A DNA stretch of 36,424 bases from Gammaproteobacteria bacterium. GTDB taxonomy: Bacteria > Pseudomonadota > Gammaproteobacteria > Pseudomonadales > Azotimanducaceae. The stretch lies in the NCBI GenBank assembly GCA_009837185.1, contig VXUA01000075.1, positions 1 to 36,424 of the forward strand. The letters are read 5' to 3'. The notes under the pieces are model-generated. The model ran no database searches. It saw only the letters and a list, made by a program, of their open reading frames with translations, and was not told the origin of the DNA. A program made the translations under genes and the position numbers. Shown here one piece after another: positions 4,731 to 25,500 of the stretch (position 1 is the stretch's first letter; each line of letters opens with the position of its first letter).

Positions 4731-5918
4731 ATGAACGATGCAATACACAATCTTGCTGTTATCGATTTTGAAACGACAGGCTTCCGATCCAAAACCGACA
4801 GAGTTGTAGAAGTAGGTATCGTATTTGTAGACCCCAACACATTTGAGATTGTCGAAGAGTGGGATACTCTGATAAACCCGATGCGCGATGTGGGGCCTAC
4901 CCAAATTCATGGCATCACTGCATCTATGGTTGAAATGGCACCGACGTTTGACGAAATTGTCGGTCTTTTATGTGCGAAATTACACAGCCACATATTAGTG
5001 TCTCACAACCTTCCATTCGACAAACGATTCTTAGGATTGGAGTTGGACAGACTCTCAGTTCCGTTTGAATTTGGACAAGGGTACTGTACGCTTCAAGCTA
5101 CAGGCCAGAAACTAACGTATGCGTGTTCCGAAGTTGGATATTCGATTGATTACGAACATAACGCTTTGTCGGACGCTCGAGCAACAACTGCGTTGTTACC
5201 AAAAGTCATTGACAGAATTTCGAACACTACTGCACCATTCGAAGTTTTTGACTCTGATCATCAAGTCAATTCGCGCACTTTAAGACGAGAAACCATAAGT
5301 CCAAATCAACCTGAAAACGTTGCGTGGAAGCGAATCGTGTCTAATGTTCAAGCACCGACTGCGGATAACAACCACGCACAGTACTTATACCTACTTGACT
5401 ACGTTCTTATAGATCGAATAATCGACGATGAAGAAGAGGAAGAACTGAGTAAACTTTGTCGAGATTTGGGTATAGGTCAACGAGAACGTAAGATGCTGGA
5501 TACCACATACGTGGAGTCAGTAGTCTCTGCGGCAGCGAGAGACAACGTTATCACACTTGCAGAACATGAGTTGATCCAGCAGCTAAAAGACTCATTAAAC
5601 GTCAAAATTGAAGTCCCCCGGGTTACGAGTGGCCAATCAAAGACTGCTGAGCTGGGACATGGAACAAACGTTTGTTTCACAGGAGAATCCGTGATAAACG
5701 GAGAGCATTACACAAGAACTAGATTGGAAGGTATTGCAAAGGATATTGGGATCGGTGTGACTGGAAGTGTCACAAAGTCTTCTTGTGACGTACTCGTTGC
5801 TTCTGATGTATCTTCGCAATCCAGTAAAGCAAAAAACGCTAGAAAATTTGGTATACCGATAATCAGCGTGGAAGATTTTCTTGATCGATTTGTACGATCA
5901 GATGTGTCCACAGATTAG
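4731..5918 (+). CDS. DEDDh 3'-5' exonuclease with TerB-like middle and BRCT C-terminus
   Basis: The N-terminal 165 residues form a DnaQ-type exonuclease with all five metal-binding or catalytic residues: D12 and E14 (in VIDFETTG), D97 (SHNLPFDKRF), H143 and D148 (EHNALSDAR). It should remove nucleotides 3'-5' from single-stranded or frayed DNA. Residues about 215-290 are an acidic helical stretch resembling a TerB-like domain. Residues about 309-388 form a BRCT domain (CFTGES near 315, then DVLVASD near 353 and GIPIISVEDFL near 374), as in NAD-dependent DNA ligases. Stand-alone exonuclease-BRCT proteins occur in bacteria, where the BRCT is thought to guide the enzyme to DNA ends or partners. 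AAGGAG at 4717-4722, 8 nt before the ATG, supports the start. It is separated by 282 bp from the preceding PLD gene, so it probably has its own promoter. Its role in the island is unknown. Confidence 0.85.
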   Translation: MNDAIHNLAVIDFETTGFRSKTDRVVEVGIVFVDPNTFEIVEEWDTLINPMRDVGPTQIHGITASMVEMAPTFDEIVGLLCAKLHSHILVSHNLPFDKRFLGLELDRLSVPFEFGQGYCTLQATGQKLTYACSEVGYSIDYEHNALSDARATTALLPKVIDRISNTTAPFEVFDSDHQVNSRTLRRETISPNQPENVAWKRIVSNVQAPTADNNHAQYLYLLDYVLIDRIIDDEEEEELSKLCRDLGIGQRERKMLDTTYVESVVSAAARDNVITLAEHELIQQLKDSLNVKIEVPRVTSGQSKTAELGHGTNVCFTGESVINGEHYTRTRLEGIAKDIGIGVTGSVTKSSCDVLVASDVSSQSSKAKNARKFGIPIISVEDFLDRFVRSDVSTD

Positions 5919-7241: not shown

Positions 7242-7889
7242 TCACTGCAAGAAGTCAAGCTTCTGGCCAATAACTTGCGCAAATGTCAGTTCAGTGTGCC
7301 TTTGATCTAAATCCAATACCCCGAGCAACGCAATGCCACTTTGAAACATTATCGGTTGGACAAAAGAATCCAGCAAATCTAACTGATGAGATAGAGGATA
7401 ACGCGGTTGTGCATTGTCGTCGTCGAAATTTCGTGCACACGTTTGAATCCCCCCGTGAACCCAATCGTGTAGTACAGACAACTTTTTACTAGCTTTTGAG
7501 ATCCACGGCGAATGGAAAGAGTTATGAGTGCTGATGTCGTCTATCGCTTTGCTAAAACCAGGAAACTTTTTAGTACGACCGTTTTCGTCGCTCTTTTCGT
7601 CAAAGATATCTAACAGCTCCTGCTCGTCTGCACATTCAAATGCCCAAACACCACGAACATAACCCTCAAACAGCGGTCTAGCAAGTGCGAACGCACCGTT
7701 AGGGTGTTCGCGGGCTAGAAGCACCAGAATCGAACCTGCTATGCGCTGGGCGTGTTGCAACAGGCTCGAACAAATATCTAATTTAGTTGTCGAATAGAGC
7801 GGAACTTGATCTTTCGTACAACTCTCAAGCCAGCTGAGTGCGTTGTCTAATTCACCAATCCTATTGGTCAAGTCGAGCGGAGTGATCAT
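7242..7889 (-). CDS. Helical protein resembling DUF6988/DUF5677-type families, STAND partner
   Basis: A 215-aa, all-alpha protein. The segment around residues 60-85, with ARPLFEGYVRGVWAFECA, resembles the R-P-L-x-E signature seen in families annotated DUF6988 or DUF5677, which turn up in defence and phage-associated regions. Molecular function is unknown. It follows the minus-strand STAND gene by 54 bp and is read in the same direction, so it is probably co-transcribed and may be an accessory or immunity factor of that system. No clear Shine-Dalgarno precedes the ATG. The family name is from memory of the motif and should be treated as tentative. Confidence 0.6.
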   Translation of the reverse strand: MITPLDLTNRIGELDNALSWLESCTKDQVPLYSTTKLDICSSLLQHAQRIAGSILVLLAREHPNGAFALARPLFEGYVRGVWAFECADEQELLDIFDEKSDENGRTKKFPGFSKAIDDISTHNSFHSPWISKASKKLSVLHDWVHGGIQTCARNFDDDNAQPRYPLSHQLDLLDSFVQPIMFQSGIALLGVLDLDQRHTELTFAQVIGQKLDFLQ

Positions 7890-7943: not shown

Positions 7944-10900
7944 CTAGTAGGGAGTGCTTAATTCGTCCTCCTCAATCAAAGCATTTAGGTTTCGAGCGGT
8001 CAGTTCTGCGACTTCAGCAACGCGGCGATCTTCATCTTCAAAATACCGTCGACAATAAGTCAGTTTTTGCTCGCATACTTCTCGAAACATTACGTTTCCA
8101 TTAAACCTGGGCTTACTGGCTACGTACTCTGCGATACATTCAGAAGTAGTGACTTTGTGCTCAAGCGCGATTAGTAGAAGAGTGCGCCAATAGTCTCGTC
8201 CCGGTTCGGCTAACGGTGCAAGCTTCTTTCTCGACGAGATGTCCAACATCAAAAAAACCTTGTAGATCTCTTGACTCGAACCAATGCACGCAACGATCTC
8301 TTCATCGGACAAGTGTTCAAAATTCACCTTGGACAAGAGAGTAAGACGTTCTCTCTCTGACAGTAATTTAATGACCTTTACAGATAGATGCTTTGGGTGG
8401 TTAGTTCGACGACCGATTTCTAACTGATACTGACCTTCCAACCATTGCATACCGAATTCATGATCCTCAGTAAAAATCTGTACAAGGAAGTTGTCGCGAT
8501 TCGCATCTCGTCTCCAATGCAATTTTCCGAGTGATATCGCAGCTTTCCAACGTTTTACGCACAAGCTTGGAGGAGGTCGTCCTGTCTCTTGATAGTATGC
8601 AAGTGCTACGTTGTACGAGATACGTTGACGATCAGAATTGAGTAATTCCAACAAGACGTTTACATCTGTGTCCGTTCCTAAACTAATCTCATCTAGAACG
8701 GATAAATTATTGGATATGTAATCAAGTAGTAGGCTTTGATACTGTTGAAAAATTTCCTTGTTTCTTTTTGACCAGTCGAGTAATTCAAAAAGATACTTTT
8801 CATCTTTGTTATGCCGAGCTAACAATTTAACCGTGTGTTTTGGTCTAAGAGCAAAACTCTTACCTATGAACGATTTCAACAAGTTCCCTGGACACTCTGC
8901 CTCTAGGAACGCGATCAGCCATTCATTTGAGTCTTCGACCTCATCAACGATCAACTGACAAAACTCGTACGCTAGTCGTCGGTCGTGCAGGCCAGCATTG
9001 CTTGCTTCTGCATCAAAATTCACAACTAATTCGGCAGTAACTTCAGGACCTAGGGCGAGATATTTGTGAGCCAGTTGTTGTATTTTTTTGAGTGTTGCTT
9101 CTTCCTGACAGTCTATCGGGGAGGAAAATAGTATCTCAAATTCTGAGTCTATATCTACTTCGAAACATTCGAAAAGCTTTTGATCAAACCTCTCGATTTC
9201 CATGAGCAACCCAGGACTGCTAGCAAATCGTTTAGCTAAGTCATTTCTGATCTGTGTTGCAAATTCTTTTCTCTTATATAGTGTGTCCTCGTCTGGAGTT
9301 CTTTCTACATTAGCATGACACCACTGACGAATTAAGTCGATCGTGTCAATCCACATCTCGGAGATATTCGCAGACTCACACAAGTAATCGACAGCATCGT
9401 CCCACAGTCTTTGGAGTTCGTTGGTTTGCTCAATGTTCGGAACGGCTGAGTAATACCATATCTCATCCAGAATTGGCGAGGGCGTAGTTCCTTCCCATGA
9501 ACCCTTAAAGGCTTCAGTGAGCGCAAAGTTTGCAACCCTTGCTGCTTCTTTTCCAATGTTAGTCTTACTCTTCATCCAATTAACTGTGGTTTCAACAAGT
9601 GCTTTACGACGGCTTATTGCTTCTGGATCCTCTTGTGATCTTTCAGTTACCCAAGCGTAGAGTACATCCTGCATTTGAGAAAAGGAACCGTTAAAGTTCT
9701 CACTCTCCTCAATCACATGATCGAAATACTGTGGGAGAAAGCGTTTCGGATTTACCCTTAAGAAACCCCTTGCAGTTTCCAGATATCGCTCTGGAAACTC
9801 TTTGATCACGAAGTCCGCTTCATGCTCCCCAAGGCTCGCAAAGTGAATCAGATCAAGATTGGTCATCTGGTCCTTGTATTGTTTTATTATGAACTCAATG
9901 TGTTGTCGTACTTGAGTACCAAACGCATGTATACAGATTAGTACTTTAAGTGCGCATCGTTTTGAACTGGCTTGTCGAAATAGAGCAAAATAGGTATCGT
10001 TCTTCACTGTAGTACTAAAAAAGACGCTTCGGACCAGTGCATACGCTAACGGCGACGGTCGTACTACGATGTTTTCACCGTGTGTGAAGATGATGCCCGC
10101 GTATGCTAAATCTTGTAAGCGACCCATCAGACTGGTCTCACTCATACTTAGGTGATTCGCGACTGCTTTTAAAGGCATCCCAAAATCACCACCAACAGCA
10201 ATGGCCGCTAACAATGGTTTTGTCTCTCCCTCTATATGCTCAACCAACCTTGGGATGAGCTCTTTCATGAGTGCTTCCCCGGACACAAGATCGGTTAAAT
10301 TTGCAGAACTTCGCGTGTGTAGTTGACACAGTGATACAGCCAATCCTGGCATTCCAGCAGCTTGTTGTCCAATCACTGCTTGAATCTGGCGAGCATACAC
10401 TCCCTGAGCCACCACGATCTCAAAGATCTGCCGACCGCTGAGTGGTTGTAACAAAATGGTGTCTTGATTGTCGATTTGGAGAATCTGTTGGATATCGGAC
10501 ACGAACTTCTCGATCGACCAACAGGACGCGACTATTCGAAAATTCGCATTTATTGTCCTTCTAATATGGTACAACGTTTGTAGCAATTCTGTATCAGAAT
10601 GTGCGTCGTCGTACAGGATAATATCGGGTTGTTTATCTCTTATTTCATCCGCGATTCGGTCTTTATCACCGCCGCATAAGAATAGAGCACCTGACTCGTT
10701 AACGAGATGGTAGAAGATGAATGTTTTTCCAGAGCCTGGTGGCCCAACTAATAAGCAGTCCCCTTTTGATTGTTGAAGAGTTGATAGTTCGTTTTCTCGA
10801 CCTACGATAGTATCACTGAAGATCGGTCTGCTAGATCTCGAGAAAGAACTCAGCGATTGAGGGTATCCTGGAATATTAAATAGCTTTATCCTCCAATCTG

Positions 10901-11501
10901 AATTGGTGTAAAGTTGCTCCGAGAACCAATGTTGGTCATAGATCCCGCCGATTGTGAAACTGTGTTTTCTTGCAAACTCTCTTATTTTTATTCTTGTACT
11001 CTCTCTAACGGTTTTTGTGGTAGCAAGATGCACTCGTCGAGATGTGGTGTAGGAAGAAACTTTTTCTAGATTCCTTTTAAAATTCTGCAATATGTTCGTT
11101 TCTGTAGTCACAATTAAAGGACTGGGTTCAGCATCATCGTCTTCCACCTCTCCATCAAATCCATAATCGCTGCTACCACCGACTAGTACTACACGCAATC
11201 CCGAACGTCGAAGAAGTGATGCTGCACAGTTTTCAAAGTCGGTTGAATCAACTTTCGCATTCAATGCCTCTAAGATTTTTTTATGCAGCGGATCCTTTAT
11301 CGTCGCGTTGTACCCTGACAAAAGAAAACCGGGTGCTTCAAGATCGGACTTCATGCGAAGATATCGTTCTAACCACGGCGGCGCGTGCTCTTCAGTTCTC
11401 TCCCACTTTGAGTAAGTGCTCGAAGTTACGCCCAATTCCGCCGCTAGTTCTTTTTGCGTCAGTCCCAAGCGCCCTCTTAAAGATTTCAATACTTGCGTCA
11501 T
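7944..11501 (-). CDS. XRE-HTH / Mrr-like / STAND NTPase defence protein
   Basis: A 1185-aa multidomain protein. Residues about 3-55 are an XRE-type helix-turn-helix (LTQKELAAELGVTSSTYSKW). Residues about 85-190 look like an Mrr-type PD-(D/E)XK fold (DYGFDGEV with D116; E134), but the usual Q/E-x-K lysine is absent at E134, so it may be a nucleic-acid-binding or inactive version. Residues 253-260 are a Walker A (GPPGSGKT) and residues near 292-300 a Walker B-like DIILYDDAH, followed by a winged-helix-like region and about 700 residues of helical repeats. This is the layout of STAND sensors such as AVAST proteins, which detect phage proteins and activate an N-terminal effector. The DNA-binding N-terminus is unusual and suggests autoregulation or DNA recruitment. 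The 215-aa gene 54 bp downstream is a likely partner. Confidence 0.8.
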   Translation of the reverse strand: MTQVLKSLRGRLGLTQKELAAELGVTSSTYSKWERTEEHAPPWLERYLRMKSDLEAPGFLLSGYNATIKDPLHKKILEALNAKVDSTDFENCAASLLRRSGLRVVLVGGSSDYGFDGEVEDDDAEPSPLIVTTETNILQNFKRNLEKVSSYTTSRRVHLATTKTVRESTRIKIREFARKHSFTIGGIYDQHWFSEQLYTNSDWRIKLFNIPGYPQSLSSFSRSSRPIFSDTIVGRENELSTLQQSKGDCLLVGPPGSGKTFIFYHLVNESGALFLCGGDKDRIADEIRDKQPDIILYDDAHSDTELLQTLYHIRRTINANFRIVASCWSIEKFVSDIQQILQIDNQDTILLQPLSGRQIFEIVVAQGVYARQIQAVIGQQAAGMPGLAVSLCQLHTRSSANLTDLVSGEALMKELIPRLVEHIEGETKPLLAAIAVGGDFGMPLKAVANHLSMSETSLMGRLQDLAYAGIIFTHGENIVVRPSPLAYALVRSVFFSTTVKNDTYFALFRQASSKRCALKVLICIHAFGTQVRQHIEFIIKQYKDQMTNLDLIHFASLGEHEADFVIKEFPERYLETARGFLRVNPKRFLPQYFDHVIEESENFNGSFSQMQDVLYAWVTERSQEDPEAISRRKALVETTVNWMKSKTNIGKEAARVANFALTEAFKGSWEGTTPSPILDEIWYYSAVPNIEQTNELQRLWDDAVDYLCESANISEMWIDTIDLIRQWCHANVERTPDEDTLYKRKEFATQIRNDLAKRFASSPGLLMEIERFDQKLFECFEVDIDSEFEILFSSPIDCQEEATLKKIQQLAHKYLALGPEVTAELVVNFDAEASNAGLHDRRLAYEFCQLIVDEVEDSNEWLIAFLEAECPGNLLKSFIGKSFALRPKHTVKLLARHNKDEKYLFELLDWSKRNKEIFQQYQSLLLDYISNNLSVLDEISLGTDTDVNVLLELLNSDRQRISYNVALAYYQETGRPPPSLCVKRWKAAISLGKLHWRRDANRDNFLVQIFTEDHEFGMQWLEGQYQLEIGRRTNHPKHLSVKVIKLLSERERLTLLSKVNFEHLSDEEIVACIGSSQEIYKVFLMLDISSRKKLAPLAEPGRDYWRTLLLIALEHKVTTSECIAEYVASKPRFNGNVMFREVCEQKLTYCRRYFEDEDRRVAEVAELTARNLNALIEEDELSTPY

Positions 11502-12090: not shown

Positions 12091-13302
12091 ATGAAGTTTC
12101 TCAATAGCTCTCAAACTGCGACGAAACTCGTTCATCTCATCGAATTACACTCGAATGTGTCTTTTGCGGTTGCGTGGGCTACCTCAGGAAAAGACAATCC
12201 GGTTTTCGACGCACTGCGAGAGGGACGCGAGAAAATACGAACGTCTGTCGTTGGCACGTCAGGCTATATCACGGACCCTCGTTTGTTGGAGTGGTGTATG
12301 CAGAAAAAGTCGCCCGTACGATGCGTCAAAACAGACACTCCATTGTTTCATCCTAAGATATACATCTTGTGGTCGGAAGACCTGTGGGATTTACTAATCG
12401 GAAGCGCAAATTTGACTGGGGGAGGATTGAAATGGAACACAGAATTGATGCTTCACATGAGTAACGACGACTGTAGTGCTGAGTTGTTTCGTAATGCACA
12501 GAAGGAAATCAACAGATATTGGAATCAGTCGGATGAAATAACGAGAGCATGGCTCAATCAATATCGGAAGAAACACAGATTTCACACGACCAACCAGCAA
12601 AAAATTCAAGCTCCTTCCCTGACCGATGTCGAGATTCCAGATCTCCTTCAATTAAGCTGGTCCGAGTTTTATTCGAAAATTCAGTCAAAAGGCGAAGAGT
12701 CCGAAATCAAGAATAGGATGAACCTTCTGCGATTTGCTAAGAAAAAATTCGATGACTATGACCGTTTTAGTGAACTTCCCGATGCTGATCGTCAGTTACT
12801 TGCGGCAACGGTTCGCCAAGATGAGGGCGCGTCCGCAAAATCGGAACTGGAGATTGGATGGTTTGGTTTTCAAACAGGATATGGGGGCTATCGGAAAGCA
12901 ATAAACGACAATAACAGCAATCTGTCGAATGCACTATCATTTATTCCCCTGCCACAATCGACAGATGTTCAAAAAAGTGATTACCTCAGGTGTGTTGAAG
13001 AGTACAAGAGAGCATTTGATGGGAAGAAATATGGTCTAAGCCTCCTTACTCGGTTGCTCGCACTTAAAAGACCTGACGTTTTTGTACCTTGGAACAATGG
13101 AAATCATAGAAAATTGAGAACAGCTCTCGTGCTGAAACCTACTTTGAATACTAGAGACTTCGAGCGATATTGGGGTGATGTAATCGAAAGAATCAGAGAT
13201 GCTCCTTGGCACCACTCACGTCGTCCGATCGCTCGTGTACAAGGCGAAATATGGGACGCTCGGGTCGCGATGCTGGATGTACTGTTCTATGATCCAGATT
13301 AA
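12091..13302 (+). CDS. Single-HKD phospholipase D-like protein, first gene of four-gene operon
   Basis: A 403-aa protein with one PLD motif: FHPK (H87, K89) followed by LLIGSANLTGGG around residues 101-112. One HKD half suggests a homodimeric active site, as in Nuc/BfiI-type PLD nucleases and DrmC of DISARM. The remaining 250 residues are helical and charged, with no recognisable fold; the C-terminal part (about 290-400) is rich in aromatic and basic residues and could bind DNA. Its stop is 8 nt before the TTG start of the DUF6361 gene, so it belongs to the same operon. I infer a nuclease or DNA-end-binding subunit of the four-gene system. Confidence 0.82.
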   Translation: MKFLNSSQTATKLVHLIELHSNVSFAVAWATSGKDNPVFDALREGREKIRTSVVGTSGYITDPRLLEWCMQKKSPVRCVKTDTPLFHPKIYILWSEDLWDLLIGSANLTGGGLKWNTELMLHMSNDDCSAELFRNAQKEINRYWNQSDEITRAWLNQYRKKHRFHTTNQQKIQAPSLTDVEIPDLLQLSWSEFYSKIQSKGEESEIKNRMNLLRFAKKKFDDYDRFSELPDADRQLLAATVRQDEGASAKSELEIGWFGFQTGYGGYRKAINDNNSNLSNALSFIPLPQSTDVQKSDYLRCVEEYKRAFDGKKYGLSLLTRLLALKRPDVFVPWNNGNHRKLRTALVLKPTLNTRDFERYWGDVIERIRDAPWHHSRRPIARVQGEIWDARVAMLDVLFYDPD

Positions 13303-13310
13303 GAAGTAGA

Positions 13311-14525
13311 TTGCTTCAACCCACACTCACATGGCTTGATCTCACGGCAAGAGATCGCGACAGAATGCAAACACTTTTGAACTTGTTCAATGAACCGGGC
13401 ACAGTAGACGAAATGGGTCTGGGTCTGATTCGAGATGCTTTTTCAGGTGAACTGTTTCCGGGGATAACGTCCTTACAGACGCACTTGCGTTATGTCCTAT
13501 TTATCCCTTGGGTGTACAAGAAACTCGACACCCAACGGAACGCAAAAGAAGAATTAAATGAAAGTCTACGGCAGCTCGAAGTCAAACTGATCAAACCACT
13601 TGCGAAAACCGGAGAGACTGGAGTCATCGGTATAAGCGCAGGCGCGAGTATTCAAAGACGACCAAGTTCAATTTACTGGAACTGTTTGCGCACGTGGGGG
13701 ATATTCCAGTACCCTCGTTCTCAAAGTTGGTATCACTCACAATTATCAAGGCAGAGAGATCAGCTTTCTGTTCGCTCAAGCACTCATGATGATCCAACCA
13801 AGGACCGGCCATTTTGGCACCCAAAATTACCTGATACTGCTCCAGACTTTCCTAGGTCTGTTACTTTTGAGCTAAGACAGAAGGAAGCGGCTTTCGTTCA
13901 GGAGCAAATAACGACGCATTGCTCCCGTTCGCTATTGGCATTCTTAGCAAACAATCCGCAAAAACAACTTGATGGAAGTTTTTGGGACCTGTCGGTGATT
14001 AACGAAGCAAGCACATCGATAAGAGAAACAGTGGAGCTTGCTCGACGGTTTTCGTTGTTCGCGGAGAGTATGCCGCTGGTTTATAACTTGATGCTCGCTG
14101 AACGACAGACGAAATTAGCTGAGATTGGTGCTGAAGCAGCGGCACTAGTGGAAGAGTATCAACAGCGTCTTCAAGAATGGATCACACGGGAGAGTGCGGA
14201 GGATGATCTATTCATTCCGAGCGATCTGTGGTGCTTTCTGTCCCAGGTACGTGCAAATCTCAAACATCCTACCAAGCGATTCATTGACGCTTGGGCTGAC
14301 AGGATCGCAGCTATAGGCGTCTCGAACATTGGTACGGATAGGGAGATTCGAGATAGTGTAGAAGAGCAAGAAGTCAATATAAAACGGGAGGAACGCGCCC
14401 GACTCAAAAATATTGATCGTTTACGAGACTGGCCCGGAGGTTCTGGTCTTGGTCGCCTCGATTTCAATTGGTTACGTGCGAAGGAACTATTGTTGGAACT
14501 CTATCAAGGATTAATAAATTGCTAG
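13311..14525 (+). CDS. DUF6361 family protein
   Basis: A 404-aa protein beginning at TTG 13311, 8 nt after the PLD stop. The N-terminus (LTWLDLTARDRDRMQTLL, then DEMGLGLIRDAF) matches the known DUF6361 opening, a W-L-D-x-s...D-R-x-R block followed by a LGIGxIRDAF-type motif. FPGIT (49-53), RY (60-61) and PW (66-67) follow. DUF6361 has no established activity as far as I know, but it commonly sits beside PLD and helicase genes. The next ATG in frame (residue 19) would remove the conserved WLD block, which supports the TTG start. It overlaps the downstream PLD gene by 7 nt. The gene at 248-1900 is a distant relative with the same motif spacing. Confidence 0.85.
   Translation: MLQPTLTWLDLTARDRDRMQTLLNLFNEPGTVDEMGLGLIRDAFSGELFPGITSLQTHLRYVLFIPWVYKKLDTQRNAKEELNESLRQLEVKLIKPLAKTGETGVIGISAGASIQRRPSSIYWNCLRTWGIFQYPRSQSWYHSQLSRQRDQLSVRSSTHDDPTKDRPFWHPKLPDTAPDFPRSVTFELRQKEAAFVQEQITTHCSRSLLAFLANNPQKQLDGSFWDLSVINEASTSIRETVELARRFSLFAESMPLVYNLMLAERQTKLAEIGAEAAALVEEYQQRLQEWITRESAEDDLFIPSDLWCFLSQVRANLKHPTKRFIDAWADRIAAIGVSNIGTDREIRDSVEEQEVNIKREERARLKNIDRLRDWPGGSGLGRLDFNWLRAKELLLELYQGLINC
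14506..14510 (+). promoter_or_regulatory. Ribosome binding site that decides a TTG start
   Basis: AAGGA at 14506-14510 lies 8 nt before TTG 14519, inside the end of the DUF6361 gene. It supports initiation at 14519 rather than at the upstream in-frame TTG at 14468, and indicates translational coupling. Confidence 0.6.
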
Positions 14526-16327
14526 CGTACGACAATCGTGCAGTCGCGTTAGAGCTATTTCGACCTCCATCGGGATCTCGACTCGATTTCGCTGTAGTCC
14601 TTTCTTACACTTTGAATCTTGAGGCACTACTAGCTCTACCTCTCGCTGTCGTTTCGCATCAAGAAGCAGGTATTGAGGAACTTCTACAAGATCCTATCCG
14701 GTTATTACAGAGTCTTCGAGAAGTGGGAGACAAAATTCATGTCTTTGTCGACGAGACTGGTGTTCACGTTCCGCAACGACGACATCCAGTATTTGTCGCG
14801 TTGGAAAGTTGTGTACATCTCGTTCGTGCTCCTAACGATGGTGTTTTTCATCCGAAATTGTGGGTTGCGCGATTTCTTCAGTCTGATGGCACTCCCTCTA
14901 TTCGAGTCGCAATTCTCTCTCGAAACTTAACCTATGATCGATCTCTCGATCTAGCGCTCGTCAGCGAAGCACGACCCCGTGAGGAATTGGTTCCGGGTTC
15001 TAAACCCATTCGCGATCTACTTGAAGAGCTCACTTCATTGAGTAGACCACGGATTCCAAAGAATCTGTCAACTAGATTGAACACAATGGGTGAAGAGATT
15101 TCTCGCTGTGAATTTCTACCACCAGAAGGATTCCATCAATCACCTATTGAATTTCAACCAATCGGAATTCCTGGATACCCTCGATTGAATCTCAATGTCG
15201 AGTACGGAAAACGTGTGTTTGCAGTCGCGCCATTCGTTAACAGAAGTGCTTTAGACGCAGTACGAGTACTGGGACCGACCGAGAGTCGGTTAATTAGTCG
15301 TCCCCATGAACTTGACACAGTACCCGCGGAGTGTTTGGAAGAATGGAGTTCCGTGAAGTTTTTAGATGACGATATAAATTACTCAGATGAGGAGATGGTT
15401 GATGAAGATATATCCAACGAAGATACAAACACTTCACTAGCAGGACTACATGCGAAGTTTGTTGTTGTCGAACACAAGCGATCACAAGCAACTTGGACTC
15501 TTGGATCAGCAAATTTAACTGCCGCTGCGTTCAATGGGCACAACGTAGAAATAGTTGCACAACTATCAGGACACGCAAACCGAGTGGGGATCGACTCGGT
15601 TTGGAAGGAAATCGAAGTCTTTTGCCACGAGTACAAGTCGTCTCAAGAAATGAAAGAGCGTTCCGAGGAAGAACAGAACGCGCGGAAGTTACTCAACGAA
15701 GCTGAAAGCAACTTTCTTGATTCTCAAACACTCCGAATCTCGTGTAAACCAGAGGATTCAGGAGAACTCTGGGAATGGTCTTTAATTGGAGGGTTCAAAA
15801 TTGATCAGGACGTGAAGGTACACGCATGGCCTATCTCTGTTAACAAAGATGAAAGCAAGGAACTTCAGTTGCCGGTCAGTTGGCAGAGCATGCCAGAGGA
15901 GCGATTGATATCGTTTGTAGCGTTTCGCTTCTCGGTCCAAAAATTTCCTGATCTTGATGAATCGTTCGTACTGAATTTACAAATTTCCGGTGTCTGCCCT
16001 GACCGAGTAGACAAAGTACTAAGGTCCGTGATTGACAGTACCGAGAAACTATTGCTATTTTTGCGATTACTACTCGGAGAAAATCATGATGACTGGATTG
16101 TGTCGTCAGAGAATGGAACCAAAGTCCAAGATGTGTTCTACAAAGCAGGCTTTGCGTTGGAGACTCTACTTGAAGATCTTCTGAGGGTAGTTTCTCGTCA
16201 TCCCGATCGTCTTGAGCCGTTTCAGAAACTGATTGCCAACCTCAATGAGACTCCTGAGGGTCGCGCACTCATCCCCAAAAAACTCGAGACACTTTGGCAA
16301 GCAGTCGAACAAGCTCTAGCAAAGTGA
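14519..16327 (+). CDS. Two-HKD phospholipase D-like protein
   Basis: A 602-aa protein counted from TTG 14519. Two PLD half-motifs are present: FHPK (H111? by this start H111 and K113) followed by AILSRNLTYD, and LHAK (H311, K313) followed by TLGSANLTAAAF. The two halves probably form one active site within the chain, giving a phosphodiesterase or nuclease. An acidic loop (about residues 280-305) separates them, and the C-terminal 200 residues are helical. It overlaps the DUF6361 stop by 7 nt and ends 13 nt before the helicase, so it sits at the centre of the operon. It parallels the 852-aa PLD protein at 1890-4448 but lacks that protein's long C-terminal extension. DISARM and Mokosh systems also pair PLD proteins with helicases. 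Confidence 0.83.
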   Translation: MLAYDNRAVALELFRPPSGSRLDFAVVLSYTLNLEALLALPLAVVSHQEAGIEELLQDPIRLLQSLREVGDKIHVFVDETGVHVPQRRHPVFVALESCVHLVRAPNDGVFHPKLWVARFLQSDGTPSIRVAILSRNLTYDRSLDLALVSEARPREELVPGSKPIRDLLEELTSLSRPRIPKNLSTRLNTMGEEISRCEFLPPEGFHQSPIEFQPIGIPGYPRLNLNVEYGKRVFAVAPFVNRSALDAVRVLGPTESRLISRPHELDTVPAECLEEWSSVKFLDDDINYSDEEMVDEDISNEDTNTSLAGLHAKFVVVEHKRSQATWTLGSANLTAAAFNGHNVEIVAQLSGHANRVGIDSVWKEIEVFCHEYKSSQEMKERSEEEQNARKLLNEAESNFLDSQTLRISCKPEDSGELWEWSLIGGFKIDQDVKVHAWPISVNKDESKELQLPVSWQSMPEERLISFVAFRFSVQKFPDLDESFVLNLQISGVCPDRVDKVLRSVIDSTEKLLLFLRLLLGENHDDWIVSSENGTKVQDVFYKAGFALETLLEDLLRVVSRHPDRLEPFQKLIANLNETPEGRALIPKKLETLWQAVEQALAK

Positions 16328-16340
16328 AAGAAACCCAATA

Positions 16341-19300
16341 ATGGACGATCAATCCCTCAATCACATACTCGCGCCACTTAAGCCGTTTCAACGTCGAACT
16401 GTGGATCTTGCCTTTAAGAGGTTGTTTGAGTCCGAGGATACATCGTACCGCTTCCTCGTAGCGGATGAGGCAGGACTAGGAAAAACCATGGTTGCGCGTG
16501 GTGTCATCGCCAAGACGATTCATCACCTTCAAGATTGTGTCGAGCGGATTGATATTGTTTATATCTGTAGCAATACCCGCATCGCAACCTCGAATCTGCC
16601 TAAGCTCCGGCTAGGAAAAGAGACTTCGAATCTGCTAGCAACGCGTCTGACACTTTTAGTTCAACAAACGGCTAAAACCAGCCAGGAGAGCACTTCAAAC
16701 CTTGCTCAAAACAAAGTCAATCTTGTGAGTTTTACACCGGGCACTTCGATTAACCTTCGTAGCCAAGGTGGCATCGTTGAAGAACGACTAATCCTGTTTC
16801 ATCTGCTCAAAGAACATTTCCACTCAACCACGGGACTAAGCAACTTCCTTCAGTGTGGTGTGGGTAATCACCGCTGGATGGAATTGTTGAAAAAGGAATG
16901 TACTTTGGATGAACGTATCGAGAAGAGTTTTTTGACTGCGTACGAACAGGACGATCTTCAAGATCAGGTCGCAGAGTTCATCGCAACCTATGGTGAAGAG
17001 GCTGATTCCTGGCCCGTTGAAGTACGACGAGAACGCCTTAACTTCGTTGGTCGAGTCCGAGAATTATTAGCTTCGGTTAGCGTCGAAGCGCTCCAACCCA
17101 ATTTAATCATCCTCGATGAGTTTCAACGCTTTCGTGACTTGCTCAATCCTGAGATTAAGGATGCCACAACTAAATTAGCTCAAAAGATATTTACGTCAAA
17201 GACTGCTGACGGCTCAGAGGTTCGAATACTACTACTCTCGGCAACTCCCTATCGATATTACGCGTCCAATGCCGAACTTGCGTCTGAGGACCACTATGAA
17301 GACTTTCTAAAGACTACTGAATTCTTGTTTAACCATGACCCTTCCGAAGTAGCTGATTTAAAGAGAAACTTCACAGAGTACTGGAAGGCGATAAACACTT
17401 CTGGAGAGGCCTTTAACGAGAATACAGTTCTTTCAACTAAGCAATGCATCGAGTCTAGACTGTTGAAGGTCATGTCTCGCACTGAAAGGGGGCGGGCAAC
17501 GGAGAGCGGGGATGCGATGGTGTTAGAACGCAAGCATATACTAACAATCAAACCTAATGACGTGATCCAGTATCGATGTACTGACGCACTATTCAACGAA
17601 GTGTGCGACACCGACCCAATGCAATACTGGAAGTCTGCGTCCTACATCACACAATTCATGTACGGGTACAAGTTTGACGATCGCTTAAGAGATCTCTTAG
17701 ACTACAGGACAGGATCTAAGCCTGAAGAATTTCTAAAACTTCTACGAGCCAACAAAGCCAACATACTTCGGCGTTCAGACATTGAACAGTGGAAAAAGAT
17801 AGACCCAGGTAACGCCAAAATTCGTGACTTGATGTCTGAGTTCTTCGATTGTGGTTGGGAGAAACTCCTCTGGGTTCCTCCTACCGTTCCCTATTGGCAG
17901 CTCGAAGGACCATTTAAGGGTATGGAAAACCAAACGAAAGCTCTACTCTTTTCTGCTTGGAACGTAGTACCCGACGTTGTCAGTGGCCTGTTGAGTTACG
18001 AAGCAGAGCGACGCATGGTACGAACAACCCACTTCGATCGAAATTTAAACTACGAGAGACTTTCCCAACTTAGCTCTACACCATTACGATTGGATGGTGA
18101 TCCGAATCCGAAAACCAGCCATCGTCAGTTTGCACTTCTGTTACCCTGTGTTACATTAGCAAACATCCATCCACTGCGAGCGATAAAGATAAACAAAAAT
18201 CCCAAAACTTGGGTGCGATCGCAGGTCACCGAACTGCTAAAAGGGCTTCCAAACCCTTCTACTGGCAAAATCGATCGGCGATGGGAATGGGCTACACTCG
18301 TACTCTTGGACCCTGGTTTAAAGACACTATTATCTGATTGGAAGAGTCTGAATCTCCCCCTCAGTGATTCGAAACATTTAGATGGGTACTTAAAAGATTT
18401 CCTAAACATAGAATCAAAGGATCTCGGACGTCGTCCAAAGGGCTTGCTCAACCTTCTCACCGATTTCGCATTAGGTTCTCCAGCAATCGTAGCGGCTCGT
18501 AGTTTTATTACACATGAAGACTCTAAAGAAGGAGAGCTTAGAAGAAGAGCAGGGGCTCAGATTGCAGGCGCATTTTGGCAATTATTCAACAGACCTGCAG
18601 TAACCTATTTATTGAGAAATCTCTACAAACGATCTACCGGTCGTGAAAAGACTTATTGGCGATTGGTCCTACGATATTGTCGGCAAGGAAACCTGCAAGC
18701 AGTGTTAGACGAGCATTGGCATTGGTTGTGGGAACAAAAGTCTTGGGACGAGACGAAGACTCGCAAAGAAAGCGTAAACGAATGCGTTATTTCAATTAAA
18801 GATGCGGTGGTTCCCAATCCATCTAGAGTGCACGTGCGCTGTTTTGACCAATTGATAAAAAGTAAGAATGGTAACGTGGACGGGCTCAGGCTGAGAACGG
18901 TGTTCGCATTGAGATACGGAAAGAACAATTGGAAGGAGAAAGGTCGAAAACTCACAGATGACTTGGTTCGAAATGCCTTTAATAGTCCGTTTCGACCATT
19001 CGTTTTAGCAAGCACGTCAATTGGACAGGAGGGATTAGATTTCCATCCTTGGTGTCATCGCGTCGTCCATTGGGATCTTCCCAGTAATCCTATTGATTTT
19101 GAACAAAGAGAGGGACGGGTACGTAGATACAAGGGGCATGCGGTGCGTCGTAATGTCGCGTCCAAATGGAAAAAAGATGCACTCGCATTGTGGGACGAGA
19201 ACACCGATTTCTGGTCGCTAATGTTCAAATTTGCGAACGACGATGCACGAGAGCTGAATCGGAGCGATATGGTACCTTGTTGGGTTGTTGATGGGGAGTG

Positions 19301-19502
19301 TAGGGTGGAACAACGGATACCGTTGTTGCCTTATACTAGAGAGGAGTCTTGGTACCGACAACTAAAATATCAACTAGCTGCGTATCGAGTTGTTCTCGGA
19401 CAATCTCGACAGGAGGAGTTCCTTCAGTGGCTTGCTGAATCAAACATTACATCTGAACAACTAAAGAGTTGGTCAATAAATCTTGAACCACCCAGCACCT
19501 GA
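16341..19502 (+). CDS. SNF2-like superfamily 2 helicase/translocase
   Basis: A 1053-aa motor protein. Motif I is ADEAGLGKT (residues 41-49), motif II is DEFQ (259-262, in place of the usual DEAH/DEAQ), motif III is SATP (300-303), and the second RecA domain has STSIGQEGLDFHPW (motif V region) and EQREGRVRRYKG (motif VI, 921-931). It should hydrolyse ATP and track along or remodel DNA. About 550 residues separate the two RecA lobes, far more than in a minimal SNF2 protein, leaving room for a specificity or partner-binding insert. It is the last gene of the operon, 13 nt after the PLD stop. The arrangement suggests that the motor feeds DNA to the PLD nucleases or licenses them. Confidence 0.9.
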   Translation: MDDQSLNHILAPLKPFQRRTVDLAFKRLFESEDTSYRFLVADEAGLGKTMVARGVIAKTIHHLQDCVERIDIVYICSNTRIATSNLPKLRLGKETSNLLATRLTLLVQQTAKTSQESTSNLAQNKVNLVSFTPGTSINLRSQGGIVEERLILFHLLKEHFHSTTGLSNFLQCGVGNHRWMELLKKECTLDERIEKSFLTAYEQDDLQDQVAEFIATYGEEADSWPVEVRRERLNFVGRVRELLASVSVEALQPNLIILDEFQRFRDLLNPEIKDATTKLAQKIFTSKTADGSEVRILLLSATPYRYYASNAELASEDHYEDFLKTTEFLFNHDPSEVADLKRNFTEYWKAINTSGEAFNENTVLSTKQCIESRLLKVMSRTERGRATESGDAMVLERKHILTIKPNDVIQYRCTDALFNEVCDTDPMQYWKSASYITQFMYGYKFDDRLRDLLDYRTGSKPEEFLKLLRANKANILRRSDIEQWKKIDPGNAKIRDLMSEFFDCGWEKLLWVPPTVPYWQLEGPFKGMENQTKALLFSAWNVVPDVVSGLLSYEAERRMVRTTHFDRNLNYERLSQLSSTPLRLDGDPNPKTSHRQFALLLPCVTLANIHPLRAIKINKNPKTWVRSQVTELLKGLPNPSTGKIDRRWEWATLVLLDPGLKTLLSDWKSLNLPLSDSKHLDGYLKDFLNIESKDLGRRPKGLLNLLTDFALGSPAIVAARSFITHEDSKEGELRRRAGAQIAGAFWQLFNRPAVTYLLRNLYKRSTGREKTYWRLVLRYCRQGNLQAVLDEHWHWLWEQKSWDETKTRKESVNECVISIKDAVVPNPSRVHVRCFDQLIKSKNGNVDGLRLRTVFALRYGKNNWKEKGRKLTDDLVRNAFNSPFRPFVLASTSIGQEGLDFHPWCHRVVHWDLPSNPIDFEQREGRVRRYKGHAVRRNVASKWKKDALALWDENTDFWSLMFKFANDDARELNRSDMVPCWVVDGECRVEQRIPLLPYTREESWYRQLKYQLAAYRVVLGQSRQEEFLQWLAESNITSEQLKSWSINLEPPST

Positions 19503-19929
19503 ATACAACCATTGAACCTGTTGACTAGTTAAGAGGGAAGTTCGCTAAACTGAACAGTTTCTTCGCAATCAGCAGTCGCATAACCATCGCTCGTCCGGTG
19601 CAAATTCTCCCCCTGACTTCTATACAAGCGTTTACTTGTACAATTTCTCGCTTTGCGTTTTAGTTCGTGCTTTTCCTCCGCTAGTTATTCTCATGGAAAC
19701 AAACCACTCAAATTCAAGGTTCAACTTCTGTGAAACTGACTCTTCGAGCTGATTTCACGAACGAAAGACAATCTTGAGTTCGCCAAAACTACGGGACTCT
19801 TGCCATTGATTACCGAAGAGTTGTCTGACTCGGTTATTATTTGTTTTATGACTTTCCTAAAGAACCACAAAGATTAGCTGAAGCCCCATGCGATCTGAGA
19901 CAAAACATCGGCTGACCTAATACACACGC
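19503..19929. other. Intergenic region before the methyltransferase, 427 bp
   Basis: No convincing gene is seen. TTGACT near 19522 followed by TAAACT about 18 bp later could be a promoter facing right. AAACTG-AA-CAGTTT at 19548-19561 is a 14-nt palindrome overlapping that area and might be an operator or a weak terminator of the helicase operon; it has no U-run. No separate controller (C-protein) gene for the restriction-modification unit is visible here. Confidence 0.4.
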
Positions 19930-20916
19930 ATGAAGAATAATCCCCTACCTCGCTTAGACTTAGAATCAGAACTACGTGAACAAATATTGCCACACTGCAG
20001 ACTCAGAAAAGGTGAAATTTGGTCTGATTTAAAAAACGGTCATCGTGTGGGGTGTCTTGACGCTACGGAATTCGAAGATGTTTCATCAATCATGGCTGGA
20101 ACGAAGGCGACACTAGCAATTCAAGATCCTCCTTACAACGTAGCAGCGTTAGACATCAGGTCCATTGAAGACTATGTGAAGTGGTGCGAAATTTGGGTCC
20201 AGAACACCACTGACTCTCTGTTACCCGATTCCTCGTTTTATGTTTGGTTAGGTGCTGATCAAAACGATGGATTTCAACCTTTAGCCGATTTCATGTTGAT
20301 GATGCGAAAACAGCCTTTTCGATCGCGAAGTTTTATTACGATGCGAAATCAAAGAGGGTATGGTACTCAAAAAAATTGGATGGCGGTTCGACAGGAATTG
20401 TTGTATTACACGCGCGGAAGTCCAGTTTTTAACGTAAACGCTGAGTACACCGACATTCCAAAGATTTTAAGAGGCTATTACAAGAATGTGGGCGGTAAGA
20501 TTGTCGAGAATTTGGAACGTAGTAAGTCCAACACTATTCGTGCGGGAAACGTGTGGGTTGATATTCAGCAAGTGTTCTATCGCATGGACGAAAATGTGTC
20601 TGGATGCTACGCTCAAAAACCTATGAAGTGTGTCGAACGTATCATGAACGCAAGTAGTTCCACTGGCGATCTAGTACTGGATTTTTTTGCACATTCTGGT
20701 ACAACCTTATTGGCCGCGGAAATACTCGATCGCAAGTGTTTCACCGTTGACATTGATCCAATTTTTGCAGAAATCTCGATTCGGAGATTAGAGAGATTCA
20801 GGAAAACCGGACAGCTTGGCTGGCAAAATGGGCATCCCTTTCAAGATAGTCTACCTGATCTCTCAAACTCGTTACACGAAACCGAAGAGTTAGAAGTTCG
20901 GTTGCCTTTTTTTTAG
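19930..20916 (+). CDS. Beta-class DNA (adenine-N6 or cytosine-N4) methyltransferase
   Basis: A 328-aa protein with the catalytic motif DPPYN (D66-P-P-Y69) near the N-terminus and the AdoMet-binding motif LDFFAHSGTT (250-259) near the C-terminus. This IV-before-I order is typical of beta-class amino-methyltransferases. It transfers a methyl group from AdoMet to the exocyclic amine of adenine or cytosine in a specific site; the middle 150 residues should hold target recognition. The D-P-P-Y form is compatible with either base. It is followed 9 nt later by a PD-(D/E)XK endonuclease, so it most likely protects host DNA as the M subunit of a type II system. The recognition site cannot be read from the sequence. 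Confidence 0.92.
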   Translation: MKNNPLPRLDLESELREQILPHCRLRKGEIWSDLKNGHRVGCLDATEFEDVSSIMAGTKATLAIQDPPYNVAALDIRSIEDYVKWCEIWVQNTTDSLLPDSSFYVWLGADQNDGFQPLADFMLMMRKQPFRSRSFITMRNQRGYGTQKNWMAVRQELLYYTRGSPVFNVNAEYTDIPKILRGYYKNVGGKIVENLERSKSNTIRAGNVWVDIQQVFYRMDENVSGCYAQKPMKCVERIMNASSSTGDLVLDFFAHSGTTLLAAEILDRKCFTVDIDPIFAEISIRRLERFRKTGQLGWQNGHPFQDSLPDLSNSLHETEELEVRLPFF

Positions 20917-20925
20917 AAGAGTTTC

Positions 20926-21639
20926 ATGGAATATTTGCAAGAAGAACTGGATCGTTTACTGAAGGAATATCCTCATCAAAGGGAACTACGTGATCGTTTA
21001 GACTCATTAGCGTCCGTATATCCATTCAACGAGTACGAGTACCTAATATCACACTTGTTAGCAGCGAACGTACTAACATTGGATGCCTACGTTGAGATTC
21101 GCGATGAATACATCGCAAGAAACTTGAATCTGTACATATATGAAATCACTGCACCAAGGAAATTCGGTGAGTCTTGGGCACAAGGACATCTTCATGCACT
21201 CGTTCCCAATCTGCAGAAACCTTCAAAGAAGCTAGATCCAAATTACTCTGGACAGTATGATTTCATGCTAGGAAAGATCAGAATAGAAGTTAAGGCTTCT
21301 CGTGCCGTCGATAAAGAAAAGGACGGCCCACTATATACGAAAGCACTGTCTCACAGATCGAAAAAAGACTTCTTAATGAATTTCCAGCAGATTAAACCAG
21401 ACTGTTGCGACGTATTCGTCTGGATTGCAGTGTGGACAGATGTTATTTGGTATTGGGTTTTGTCCGCGCGAGAAGTACGAGAGAATGAGTTCTATTCTGT
21501 GAGTCAACATCGAGGTAATGTCGGCGAAGGACAGCTTCATCTCAAACGCGAAAACATTCGCGACTTTGATGAATACAAGATTAAGCCCAATAGATTGGAA
21601 CAAGCAATACGAAACGCGTATAAGCGAAATCTCGCATAG
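20926..21639 (+). CDS. PD-(D/E)XK restriction endonuclease
   Basis: A 237-aa protein with the catalytic signature D112 (GQYDFML), then E121-V-K123 (IRIEVKAS), spaced as in PD-(D/E)XK nucleases. This predicts Mg-dependent double-strand cleavage. The region after it (NFQQIKPDCCDVFVWIAVW, residues about 151-169) looks like the conserved core strand and helix following the active site. It starts 9 nt after the methyltransferase stop on the same strand, so the pair reads as a type II restriction-modification unit. The family is not one that I can name with confidence, and the cut site is unknown. Confidence 0.85.
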   Translation: MEYLQEELDRLLKEYPHQRELRDRLDSLASVYPFNEYEYLISHLLAANVLTLDAYVEIRDEYIARNLNLYIYEITAPRKFGESWAQGHLHALVPNLQKPSKKLDPNYSGQYDFMLGKIRIEVKASRAVDKEKDGPLYTKALSHRSKKDFLMNFQQIKPDCCDVFVWIAVWTDVIWYWVLSAREVRENEFYSVSQHRGNVGEGQLHLKRENIRDFDEYKIKPNRLEQAIRNAYKRNLA

Positions 21640-22508: not shown

Positions 22509-25500
22509 CTATCCAATCGAGAATGATGAACTCTTAAGAAAATCTCGGAACAGTAACTGTTCATCGTTTTCGTTAATGAGCACGTCGAAAGCATCAGGTC
22601 TAATGACTAATCCAGAACCACACAAGCGAGGCCATGCGAGGAAGTAGTCGCTTGTTTCGTACTCTGTTCGCCAAGTGATCAGTGCCATCACCCGTCCTTT
22701 GCTGTCGTCTAGAGTAAATTGACCTTCATTCTTGATTTGCAGTACTGCGACGAGCCATTGAGTTGGATTTAATACCATGATTGGAATTCCAAGTCCATGT
22801 GTTCTAGGGGCAATGCCTCCAACAACGGGTTGAGCAGCGCCATCGCGGCACAGGAAATTGTGCAAGTCATGACTAATAGACAGATCAACCGGTTCTATTA
22901 ATGGGACAGGAGGCGACATCAACCCGTGGTCGTCTCCTTGGTTCCTAAGTTCGATTGCGCGAAATCTCTCCACAATTTGATTGATTTTGCTATTCCAGTC
23001 CTGATGTAGTACTTCTCGTCTCTCGTGGGTTGCGACTAGTCGCCATCCTTCGTAGGCACCGCTGATGACAGTCGGTACTTCGTGCGGTTCTGAAATCGAC
23101 AATGTACCAGAGATCTCACCGTCTTCCTGATCCTGAAGCGTTTTTCCGTCAACTGTATCATCGACGACTCGATTTCGCAGATTGTTCCAAGATTGATGTC
23201 CTCGATGAGGTGGTGGCGGTATCTCAGGTCTTGGTTGTCGCGTAGCCTCAATGGCCAATGCGGGTTGTGGTTCATTTATTAGAACTTCTGCGAGGGAGTT
23301 TTCTAATTGGACAGGGTCGCTCGACAGATCTTCGTTAATCAGGCGCGCTGCACGCGCGCCTGATGCAGCGTGCTGTATAGCATTCTCTATAGTTTCTTCC
23401 ATATGAATGAATATATCTGGGATGCGCTTTGCAAACTGGTTTTGATAAGCATCACGTTGCCTTTTTGCTCTTCGCTTAAATTCATCACTCTTCCACGCCT
23501 TGGTGAACCTTCTAGTAACAGCTAACCGCAAACCGGGAAGGATCTCTTCAGCCTGGTTCAGCCGATTACCAGCAATTTCATCGACGACGGGTTCTAACTC
23601 GCTGGCAATCTTGTCTCGATAGGTACTGTCCATTCGATCTACAGGACCGCGCGGAATCAAGTCAAGATCCGGTTCAGAAGCACTCGGCAACGGTACTTCG
23701 ACATCGGGTAGTAGCTGTCGCGCTAAAGAGCGGACGACAAGGTGGGGTCTTCCAGCCAATTCGATCAACGCTTCGCGACACGCCGTTACAACTGACGCCA
23801 TTTGATTCTTCGCGTCCGTGATGGTACGAAGTAACCAAGTTAGTGTTGTCACATCAGATATAGTCAATAGTGCAGAATTGATCGCAGGTGCAATTTTGGT
23901 CGGTCGTTCTTCGATCAAAATCTGAATGGCGAAGAGTGTCCGACGTTTTTGCTCTCGTCCGGGATGGAATAAACCCGATAGAATAGCAGTCGCGAATGCG
24001 GTATCGATATCTCCGGGTGGATCACTTCCATGATCTGGTAACGGTGGTTCATAGAAGATTTCTGGATCATCCTCATCGCTTATACGAGGAGCTCTGTTTT
24101 CGATCACTCTAAACGCTTCTTCCCAGATATCGAATGCGAAAGTGGTATCGCTAGCGAGACAACCGTCGGTGAAACCATAAATGAGTGACTGAGTGAGCCA
24201 CATACTTTCACTCCTGCTGGAAACAATGCGTTCCACCTCTTTCGCGACTGTCCGAATTGCTGTCTCGTGACCGAGCTTTACGGCGCGACGAAGCGATTCA
24301 ATATTTTTTTTCGCTCCAAACATTTTCCAATCGCCAACACCCTGAGCACGAGTCCATGCGAGAGTAAAAGCCACGCTTGCTAGCTTGTAGTGCTTATGGC
24401 GTTCAAAACCTTCCGCGAGAGCGAATAGAAGTGTTGAGTTGTGACCGAAACCCCACATATTTCCAATGTCATCAAGCACTATCTCTACCTCTTTATCACG
24501 CTGCTCGTCAAGCAATTCAATCAGCCGGTAACCCAAAATGTTCGTAAATCGTGGTATCCACCCATTTGAATCGGGTTCATCGTAGCGAAATTCCTGACAA
24601 GCGAGCATAGCTTGTCTGATGCCAGCCGCGCCTTCTGTGAAACAGTCGGTAGGTTGATCATGCATCTGCAGTCTGGATCGTTTTGTGCGAGGATGTTGAT
24701 AGGAATCTGGTTTGCCGTCTTCTTGATCACCGGATTCAGGCAATTGAGCAATTTTTGAAGCACTAACGGATGTCGCAATTTCGTTAATTTCGTCGACAAG
24801 TTTCTGGTCTCGATCTAGCGGGTCCTCATCCGCACTATATCCATATTTGACGGGTCGTTCGTCGATCCTTGAAAGCAAAGCATCAAACAATTTTGACGCA
24901 CCGTTCCATTCTTCTTTGTCATACAACACAGAGAGCTGGCGGAGGGCAAATACATCCTCTGGATCTAACGCTTCATCGAGCGTGAGACGTAAAGCTCCTG
25001 CAACTACAGGGTCAGCCTGTTTGTACCAAGCCCTCCAGAGGTCTGATCGCGCACCTTGTAATAAATCATTCGGATCATTGCAAGACCCCAAACTTGGTTC
25101 GATCAACTTGGACAGTCCGCAGGGATCACCCCTTGCAAGAAGTTTCAACCAGCACGCCCACGCTCGACGAGTTCCCCTTCCGTCAGTGTGAAAGGGCACA
25201 CGTTCACACAAAGGTTGAAGTTTGGCGATAAGTTCTCGACTACGTTTAGGGTCGTGTTTGACTAGGTTCATGAGCGGGTCTACTACCTCGTAGATAGTCG
25301 AATCCTTGTGTGATCCATATCCAAGAAGAAGTTGGCATGCATTAGTCCAATGCATTCGCGCTTCGTCTAGTTTGTCATTGGCTAAGCCATGTCTCGCTGT
25401 TAACAATCGATGATGTGCCAGATCCGCGTAGAAGTTTCCGCATCCCCCTGCTTCAATTTCTTCGTTGAGAAATTGTTGAGCTGTATTCCAACGCGTGGGA

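Follow-up and report, generated by a model that had tools for sequence, protein, structure and literature searches.

A probably working Azaca cassette next to a SauUSI-like PLD nuclease gene in a gammaproteobacterial contig

The four-gene locus and its Azaca cassette

We analysed a stretch of 36,424 nucleotides (nt) from a Gammaproteobacteria bacterium of the family Azotimanducaceae (the whole of contig VXUA01000075.1, from a draft genome of 2.77 Mb; here called the window), in which four genes on the forward strand occupy 12091-19502, and the last three of them (13311-19502) are recognised by their sequences as Azaca, a named anti-phage system reportedly described by Millman et al. in 2022, in its usual order and with catalytic motifs intact. 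Gene 1 (12091..13302) encodes a PLD-family nuclease of 403 amino acids (aa) with a single-HKD N-terminal domain and a predicted all-helical C-terminal half, gene 2 (zacA, 13311..14525, TTG start) a DUF6361 protein of 404 aa, gene 3 (zacB, 14519..16327) a two-HKD PLD nuclease of 602 aa, and gene 4 (zacC, 16341..19502) a superfamily 2 (SF2), SNF2-like motor of 1053 aa. All open reading frames (ORFs) were confirmed at the coordinates of the original prediction, and so were its spacings: 8 nt between genes 1 and 2, an overlap of 7 nt between genes 2 and 3, and 13 nt between genes 3 and 4. The overlap presupposes that gene 3 starts at TTG 14519 within its longest ORF (14468-16327), a start supported by the homologues, whose alignments begin most often at residue 18 of the longer ORF. 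On the upstream side gene 1 is separated by 589 nt from a divergent gene ending at 11501, and on the downstream side 427 nt lie between zacC and the next gene.

The PADLOC models of Azaca (PDLC03828-PDLC03830) were matched almost from end to end: gene 2 matched ZacA at E 1.8e-112 (residues 3-401 on profile positions 2-394 of 396), gene 3 matched ZacB at 1.2e-139 (profile 4-582 of 586), and gene 4 matched ZacC at 5.5e-299 (profile 5-1016 of 1019), for which the next-best PADLOC model was PDC-M27C (1.5e-16, residues 877-933 only). Gene 2 had been called a DUF6361 protein beforehand, and Pfam agrees (PF19888, 7.5e-56). The three genes are adjacent, in the order A-B-C and on one strand, which is the Azaca arrangement. 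Therefore the two-PLD arrangement, which the original prediction had set apart from DISARM and Mokosh, is not a new system; the kind of system, motor, PLD and DUF6361 proteins directed against incoming DNA, had been correctly perceived, with Azaca named as a comparison, but three of the four genes match Azaca itself over nearly their full length. That the locus is a system distinct from Azaca, DISARM and Mokosh and merely built of the same parts is an extremely remote prospect: the two-PLD arrangement is all that speaks for it, whereas the end-to-end matches to ZacA, ZacB and ZacC refute it at the sequence level, the matches to DrmA, DrmC and DrmD are short and confined to motifs, and no Mokosh-named PADLOC model appeared among the hits of the four proteins at E 0.01 (whether that library includes Mokosh models was not checked). 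We consider it very likely that a complete and probably functional Azaca occupies 13311-19502 and that gene 1 is most likely an independent PLD nuclease and not a subunit. The apparent four-gene system is thus resolved as Azaca with a probable bystander, and there is no new system to claim.

Matches to ZacA were found in 12/150 genomes of the family, 8/369 of the class and 7/398 of the phylum (each count includes the window's own genome, and some of the matches are weak), and in 45 plasmid records, of which the three examined came from Cronobacter, Agrobacterium and the archaeon Halomarina; a scan of viral contigs for ZacA relatives returned none. Four genomes with weak ZacA matches only (G041, G197, G819 and G876; E 8e-5 or worse) were left out, and the 22 Azaca loci compared with the window comprise 19 from the family, class and phylum genomes and the three plasmid records. 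In 17 of these 22 the genes zacA-zacB-zacC are intact and in order, and the intact order is seen in all three sets of genomes, from family to phylum, as well as on the Cronobacter and archaeal plasmids. The other five have a split gene (L019, L082, L090), show no zacB and a shortened zacA and zacC (L026), or are cut by the contig end (L025), which in L019, L026, L082 and L090 suggests decay in some lineages, or sequencing or assembly errors. A fragment of ZacA was also seen elsewhere in the window's own genome (L015, G000:C85:9644-9766), covering ZacA positions 2-42 only (2.7e-10), possibly a remnant.

Between the window and a copy from the same genus (L022, 77-85% protein identity), the ratios of nonsynonymous to synonymous substitution rates (dN/dS) were 0.205 for zacA, 0.194 for zacB and 0.153 for zacC, and from these values all three genes are under purifying selection. 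The two HKD motifs that had been read in gene 3, H111/K113 and H311/K313 (numbered from the 14519 start), are both invariant in 17/17 aligned proteins, and in 19/19 in a separate alignment of loci from which ORFs shorter than 85% of the window protein were dropped (ZacA: L026; ZacB: L019, L025, L026, L082; ZacC: L019, L090). Alignment A3 omits L019, L025 and L026, and A6 omits those together with L082, L090 and L092 (split, missing or over-extended ORFs). In ZacC, K48 of GLGKT is present in all 19 rows that reach that far, DEF lies at 259-261, and the positions tested in DEF, SATP, EG-D and QR-R are unchanged in 20/20 rows; the table of ZacC motifs and insert additionally drops L025, where the aligned gene is a different helicase. 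Both the motor with K48 and the very long insert between its lobes are present as predicted, but the insert is not peculiar to this locus: 589 residues separate SATP from motif V in the window protein (the stretch from motif III to motif V), and it is a family trait, because the same distance is 564-616 residues in all 20 rows.

Gene 1 and its relation to Azaca

Gene 1 has a Pfam PLDc_2 match of 28.1 bits (cut-off 27) and, as the original prediction held, a single HKD-type motif, in which H87, K89, N107 and E118 are invariant in 18/18 aligned proteins; the family to which it belongs consists of proteins about 400 aa long. Profile A2, made from the window protein and 17 of 19 genome loci (L062 and L063, with short partial matches, were left out), matched the structures of SauUSI (7clg_A, 4.5e-16), BfiI (2c1l_A, 9.3e-6) and the NgoAVII R protein (4rct_A, 1.1e-5). 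The AlphaFold2 model (mean pLDDT 86.6) gave the same names in Foldseek, with SauUSI at ranks 1-2 (1.8e-8), NgoAVII R at rank 3 (3.2e-5), then NucT and Zucchini, and BfiI at rank 7 (5.7e-5), and the best 50 of 307 matches align 121-217 of the 403 columns. By profile and by model, residues about 1-170 are a SauUSI/NgoAVII/BfiI-like PLD nuclease domain, and the C-terminal half, which has no Pfam match, is predicted in the model to be all-helical, unlike B3. Profile A2 found matches in 33/150 family genomes, mostly to the PLD part alone, and the gene 1 protein (P0001) in 11/369 class genomes, its own included, with only two others below 1e-20. Relatives of gene 1 were present in one viral contig and 14 plasmid records (2 examined), and none was found in phage records at E 1e-5. 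As an extra ZacB, gene 1 was considered and rejected: its match to the ZacB model spans only positions 298-362 of 586 (1.3e-7), and the comparison of profiles covers the second HKD motif only (61 columns).

The original prediction treated all four genes as one functional unit, an interpretation that the comparison of genomes does not support. The 12,094-base contig of the same-genus copy L022 aligns with window positions 13314-19503 at 81%, and elsewhere shares only matches of 19 nt and 23 nt; the shared DNA runs from the zacA start to the zacC stop, and therefore the shared unit excludes gene 1. When 24 proteins of the gene-1 family were searched in the 22 Azaca loci, in 20 of which 1.2 kb or more of the sequence preceding zacA is visible, the hits were few in residues and weak (best E 5e-5 over 44 residues) and none was a full gene. 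Conversely, in 30 loci of gene-1 relatives tblastn found no zacA, and matches to ZacB and ZacC were only short and weak (ZacB over 45 residues inside the gene-1 relative itself, ZacC over 60 residues in a cas3 gene). Three pairs of these loci (L040/L060, L051/L064 and L048/L131) are apparently duplicates of one place each, the sequence of L041 and of L048/L131 stops within 450 nt on the downstream side, and L137 has a partial gene only. The gene 1-gene 2 adjacency is thus found in none of the 22 Azaca loci, and the four genes were rejected as a conserved operon unit.

A constant partner of gene 1 was also sought and rejected, since clustering over 22 loci gave shared neighbours only in syntenic or duplicate loci, bar one cluster touching L046, and a Pfam scan of ten neighbours gave cas3, aconitase, two DNA methylases, cobW, a lysyl-PG synthase domain and, for the remaining four, no match, so that the two methylase domains were all that any of them had in common. 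Elsewhere in this genome lies another copy of gene 1 (L002/L029, G000:C62:84421-85599), 42% identical and with no zac genes near it. The neighbourhood of this second copy recurs in L045.

We weighed whether gene 1 could be a lineage-specific fourth component of Azaca, adding a second nuclease to one four-gene operon, and find this quite unlikely. It would fit the 8-nt spacing on the same strand, the similar base composition (GC content 0.447 in gene 1 and 0.458-0.469 in zacA-zacC) and the lack of a promoter-like site over some 370 nt ahead of zacA, a result of an uninformative scan; it does not fit the absence of gene 1 from the 22 Azaca loci, the same-genus copy among them, nor the 30 loci of relatives with differing neighbours and without zac genes, nor the second copy standing apart from zac genes. 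The preferred reading, in which gene 1 is separate from Azaca, has points to its disadvantage too: the upstream side is unseen in 2/22 Azaca loci, the promoter scan (6 sites against a mean of 14.8 in shuffled sequence) cannot decide whether zacA has a promoter of its own, and the 8-nt gap and similar GC content leave a local functional link of gene 1 to Azaca possible. Gene 1 is probably co-transcribed with zacA, 8 nt away, and yet most likely not a subunit.

A helicase-free pair upstream and other defence-type genes

Near the start of the window, two further forward-strand genes resemble zacA and zacB. The first (248-1900) encodes a ZacA-like protein of 550 aa that has one motif region in common with ZacA (hhalign E 3.6e-7 over 48 columns), and the second (1887-4448) a ZacB-like double-PLD protein of 853 aa with a long C-terminal extension, which aligns with ZacB over the two PLD domains (probability 97.8, E 9.7e-13) and whose HKD motifs are invariant in 5/5 proteins. 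The two genes are adjacent and in the same order in 11 of the 12 other loci opened (L095-L100, L141-L145), the exception being L101, which has a 47-residue fragment only and no second gene. Four of the 11 loci are plasmid-borne, and there each of the two genes carries the annotation 'hypothetical protein'; in all, 16 and 11 plasmid records matched the two proteins, and four were opened. In the sequence around the 11 loci, no tblastn match to ZacC proteins reached E 1e-5, though a UvrD-type or type III-like helicase lies near some of them.

PADLOC, run on the window pair and 4/11 loci, returned weak partial hits only (ZacA, ZacB, PDC-M27B, DrmC, DpdK, PbeA), and the pair has no PADLOC name of its own. 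The literature searched makes no mention of DUF6361, PDC-M27, PDC-S48, PDC-S52 or PDC-S35, a search that would miss the pair under another name. By its profile matches the pair seems to be an undescribed relative of Azaca without a helicase; it looks more novel than the locus at 13311-19502, a novelty that has been weakly tested, and its relatives and surroundings suggest that it may be a defence system. Further, we propose, tentatively and with some doubt, that there is a wider ZacA-ZacB family whose members may or may not have a motor, with Azaca as one of its branches, and that the window holds both branches, with the pair, 9 kb upstream, as an undescribed defence operon whose C-terminal extension would replace the motor, and with gene 1 as a third, independently acquired PLD nuclease in the island. 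The pair is a natural experiment on the purpose of the Azaca motor, with related partners lacking a motor in 11 other loci.

Other genes of defence type surround these. On the forward strand, a DEDDh exonuclease at 4731-5918 has a C-terminal BRCT match below the cut-off and matches the candidate defence protein PDC-S48 (2.7e-94), and a type II restriction-modification pair at 19930-21639 was recognised by PADLOC and Pfam (N6_N4 methylase and REase_II, 4.0e-75). On the reverse strand, a gene at 7944-11501 encodes a protein of 1185 aa with a helix-turn-helix domain and sub-cut-off matches to Mrr and nSTAND3, and it adjoins a DUF6988/PDC-S52 gene at 7242-7889, with which it possibly forms a two-gene defence unit. 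Also on the reverse strand are a gene at 22509-28910, whose product of 2133 aa has a NACHT/AAA NTPase domain and matches Avs1b in part (2.6e-13), and a gene for a CAP12/Pycsar-type TIR effector matching PDC-S35 (29104-30207), for which no cyclase partner was matched among the window proteins scanned with Pfam. A TnpB/IS605 OrfB-like gene lies on the forward strand at the contig end (35113-36402).

Possible mode of action and comparison with known systems

How Azaca works may be approached through related enzymes, because SauUSI and the R2H2 enzymes NgoAVII and CglI couple a PLD nuclease to an SF2 motor. In the passages of PMC7913695 that treat them, SauUSI is a dimer held together by its nuclease domains whose ATPase moves along DNA, and NgoAVII and CglI combine PLD subunits with SF2 subunits as R2H2 complexes; the ZacB profile itself matches the SauUSI chain 7clg_A at 1.3e-5. 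By analogy, ZacC would be an ATP-driven translocase on double-stranded DNA. ZacB, whose single chain carries both HKD motifs, would alone form the composite active site that in BfiI-type nucleases arises through dimerisation, and would cut the DNA delivered by ZacC, and ZacA could be an adaptor or recognition subunit that licenses the cutting of incoming phage DNA. This is the mechanism that we consider most likely, at about even odds, and each of its elements (translocation, cleavage, the assembly of a complex and the part played by ZacA) is proposed from analogy. Several observations weigh against the proposal: the Azaca passages of the literature examined describe no mechanism, ZacA has no convincing relative in the Protein Data Bank (PDB; best E 0.15), and a single-sequence model of ZacA (pLDDT 39) was discarded as useless. 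The role given to ZacA is a guess, because there is neither a solved relative of note nor a useful model. Azaca is likewise not mentioned in the part of PMC12839542 consulted. The gathered Azaca loci with their conserved residues are a resource for testing a mechanism.

No methyltransferase lies inside the Azaca cassette. That Azaca is an ATP-dependent restriction system relying on the adjacent type II methyltransferase (19930-20916) to mark self from non-self is very improbable: although genes for a methyltransferase and a restriction enzyme follow on the same strand, the 427-nt gap intervenes, the methyltransferase has its own adjacent restriction enzyme (the REase_II above), and among the genome Azaca loci a similar gene was found only in L022 (blastp 31% over 87 residues), other types of methyltransferase not having been sought.

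With SauUSI, NgoAVII, CglI and BfiI the window proteins share the PLD nuclease domain, and an SF2 ATPase is described for SauUSI, NgoAVII and CglI in the same passages of PMC7913695. However, gene 1 differs from these enzymes in its C-terminal half, which is predicted to be all-helical and apparently takes the place of a B3 or SRA domain, and in having no motor in the chain, and Azaca differs from them in having the motor and the nuclease on two genes, in the addition of DUF6361 and in placing both HKD motifs in one chain. DISARM resembles the locus in its PLD protein and SNF2-like motor and in short motif matches to DrmC and DrmD, but no full-length Drm match was found; membership of DISARM was rejected, as the original prediction had also judged, because, of the expected DrmA, DrmB, DrmC and methyltransferase, the four proteins gave in PADLOC only short motif matches to DrmA and DrmC (and to DrmD) and no match to DrmB, and the NCBIfam DISARM scores were far below cut-off (15.8 against 133 and 48.6 against 610). 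Mokosh combines a helicase with a PLD domain, its components being MkoA/MkoB or MkoC. PMC10952713 lists a PLD-like domain for Mokosh as well as for Azaca, and a table there attributes Azaca to Millman et al. 2022. The PADLOC candidate PDC-M27 is likewise matched in part, PDC-M27C by the helicase core of ZacC (1.5e-16) and PDC-M27B by the PLD part of the upstream pair (1.1e-10), whereas the full-length match of gene 4 is ZacC. With Azaca the likeness extends to all three proteins over nearly their full length, to the gene order and to the motifs, and the only difference is the extra upstream PLD gene of the window, which lies outside the shared cassette.

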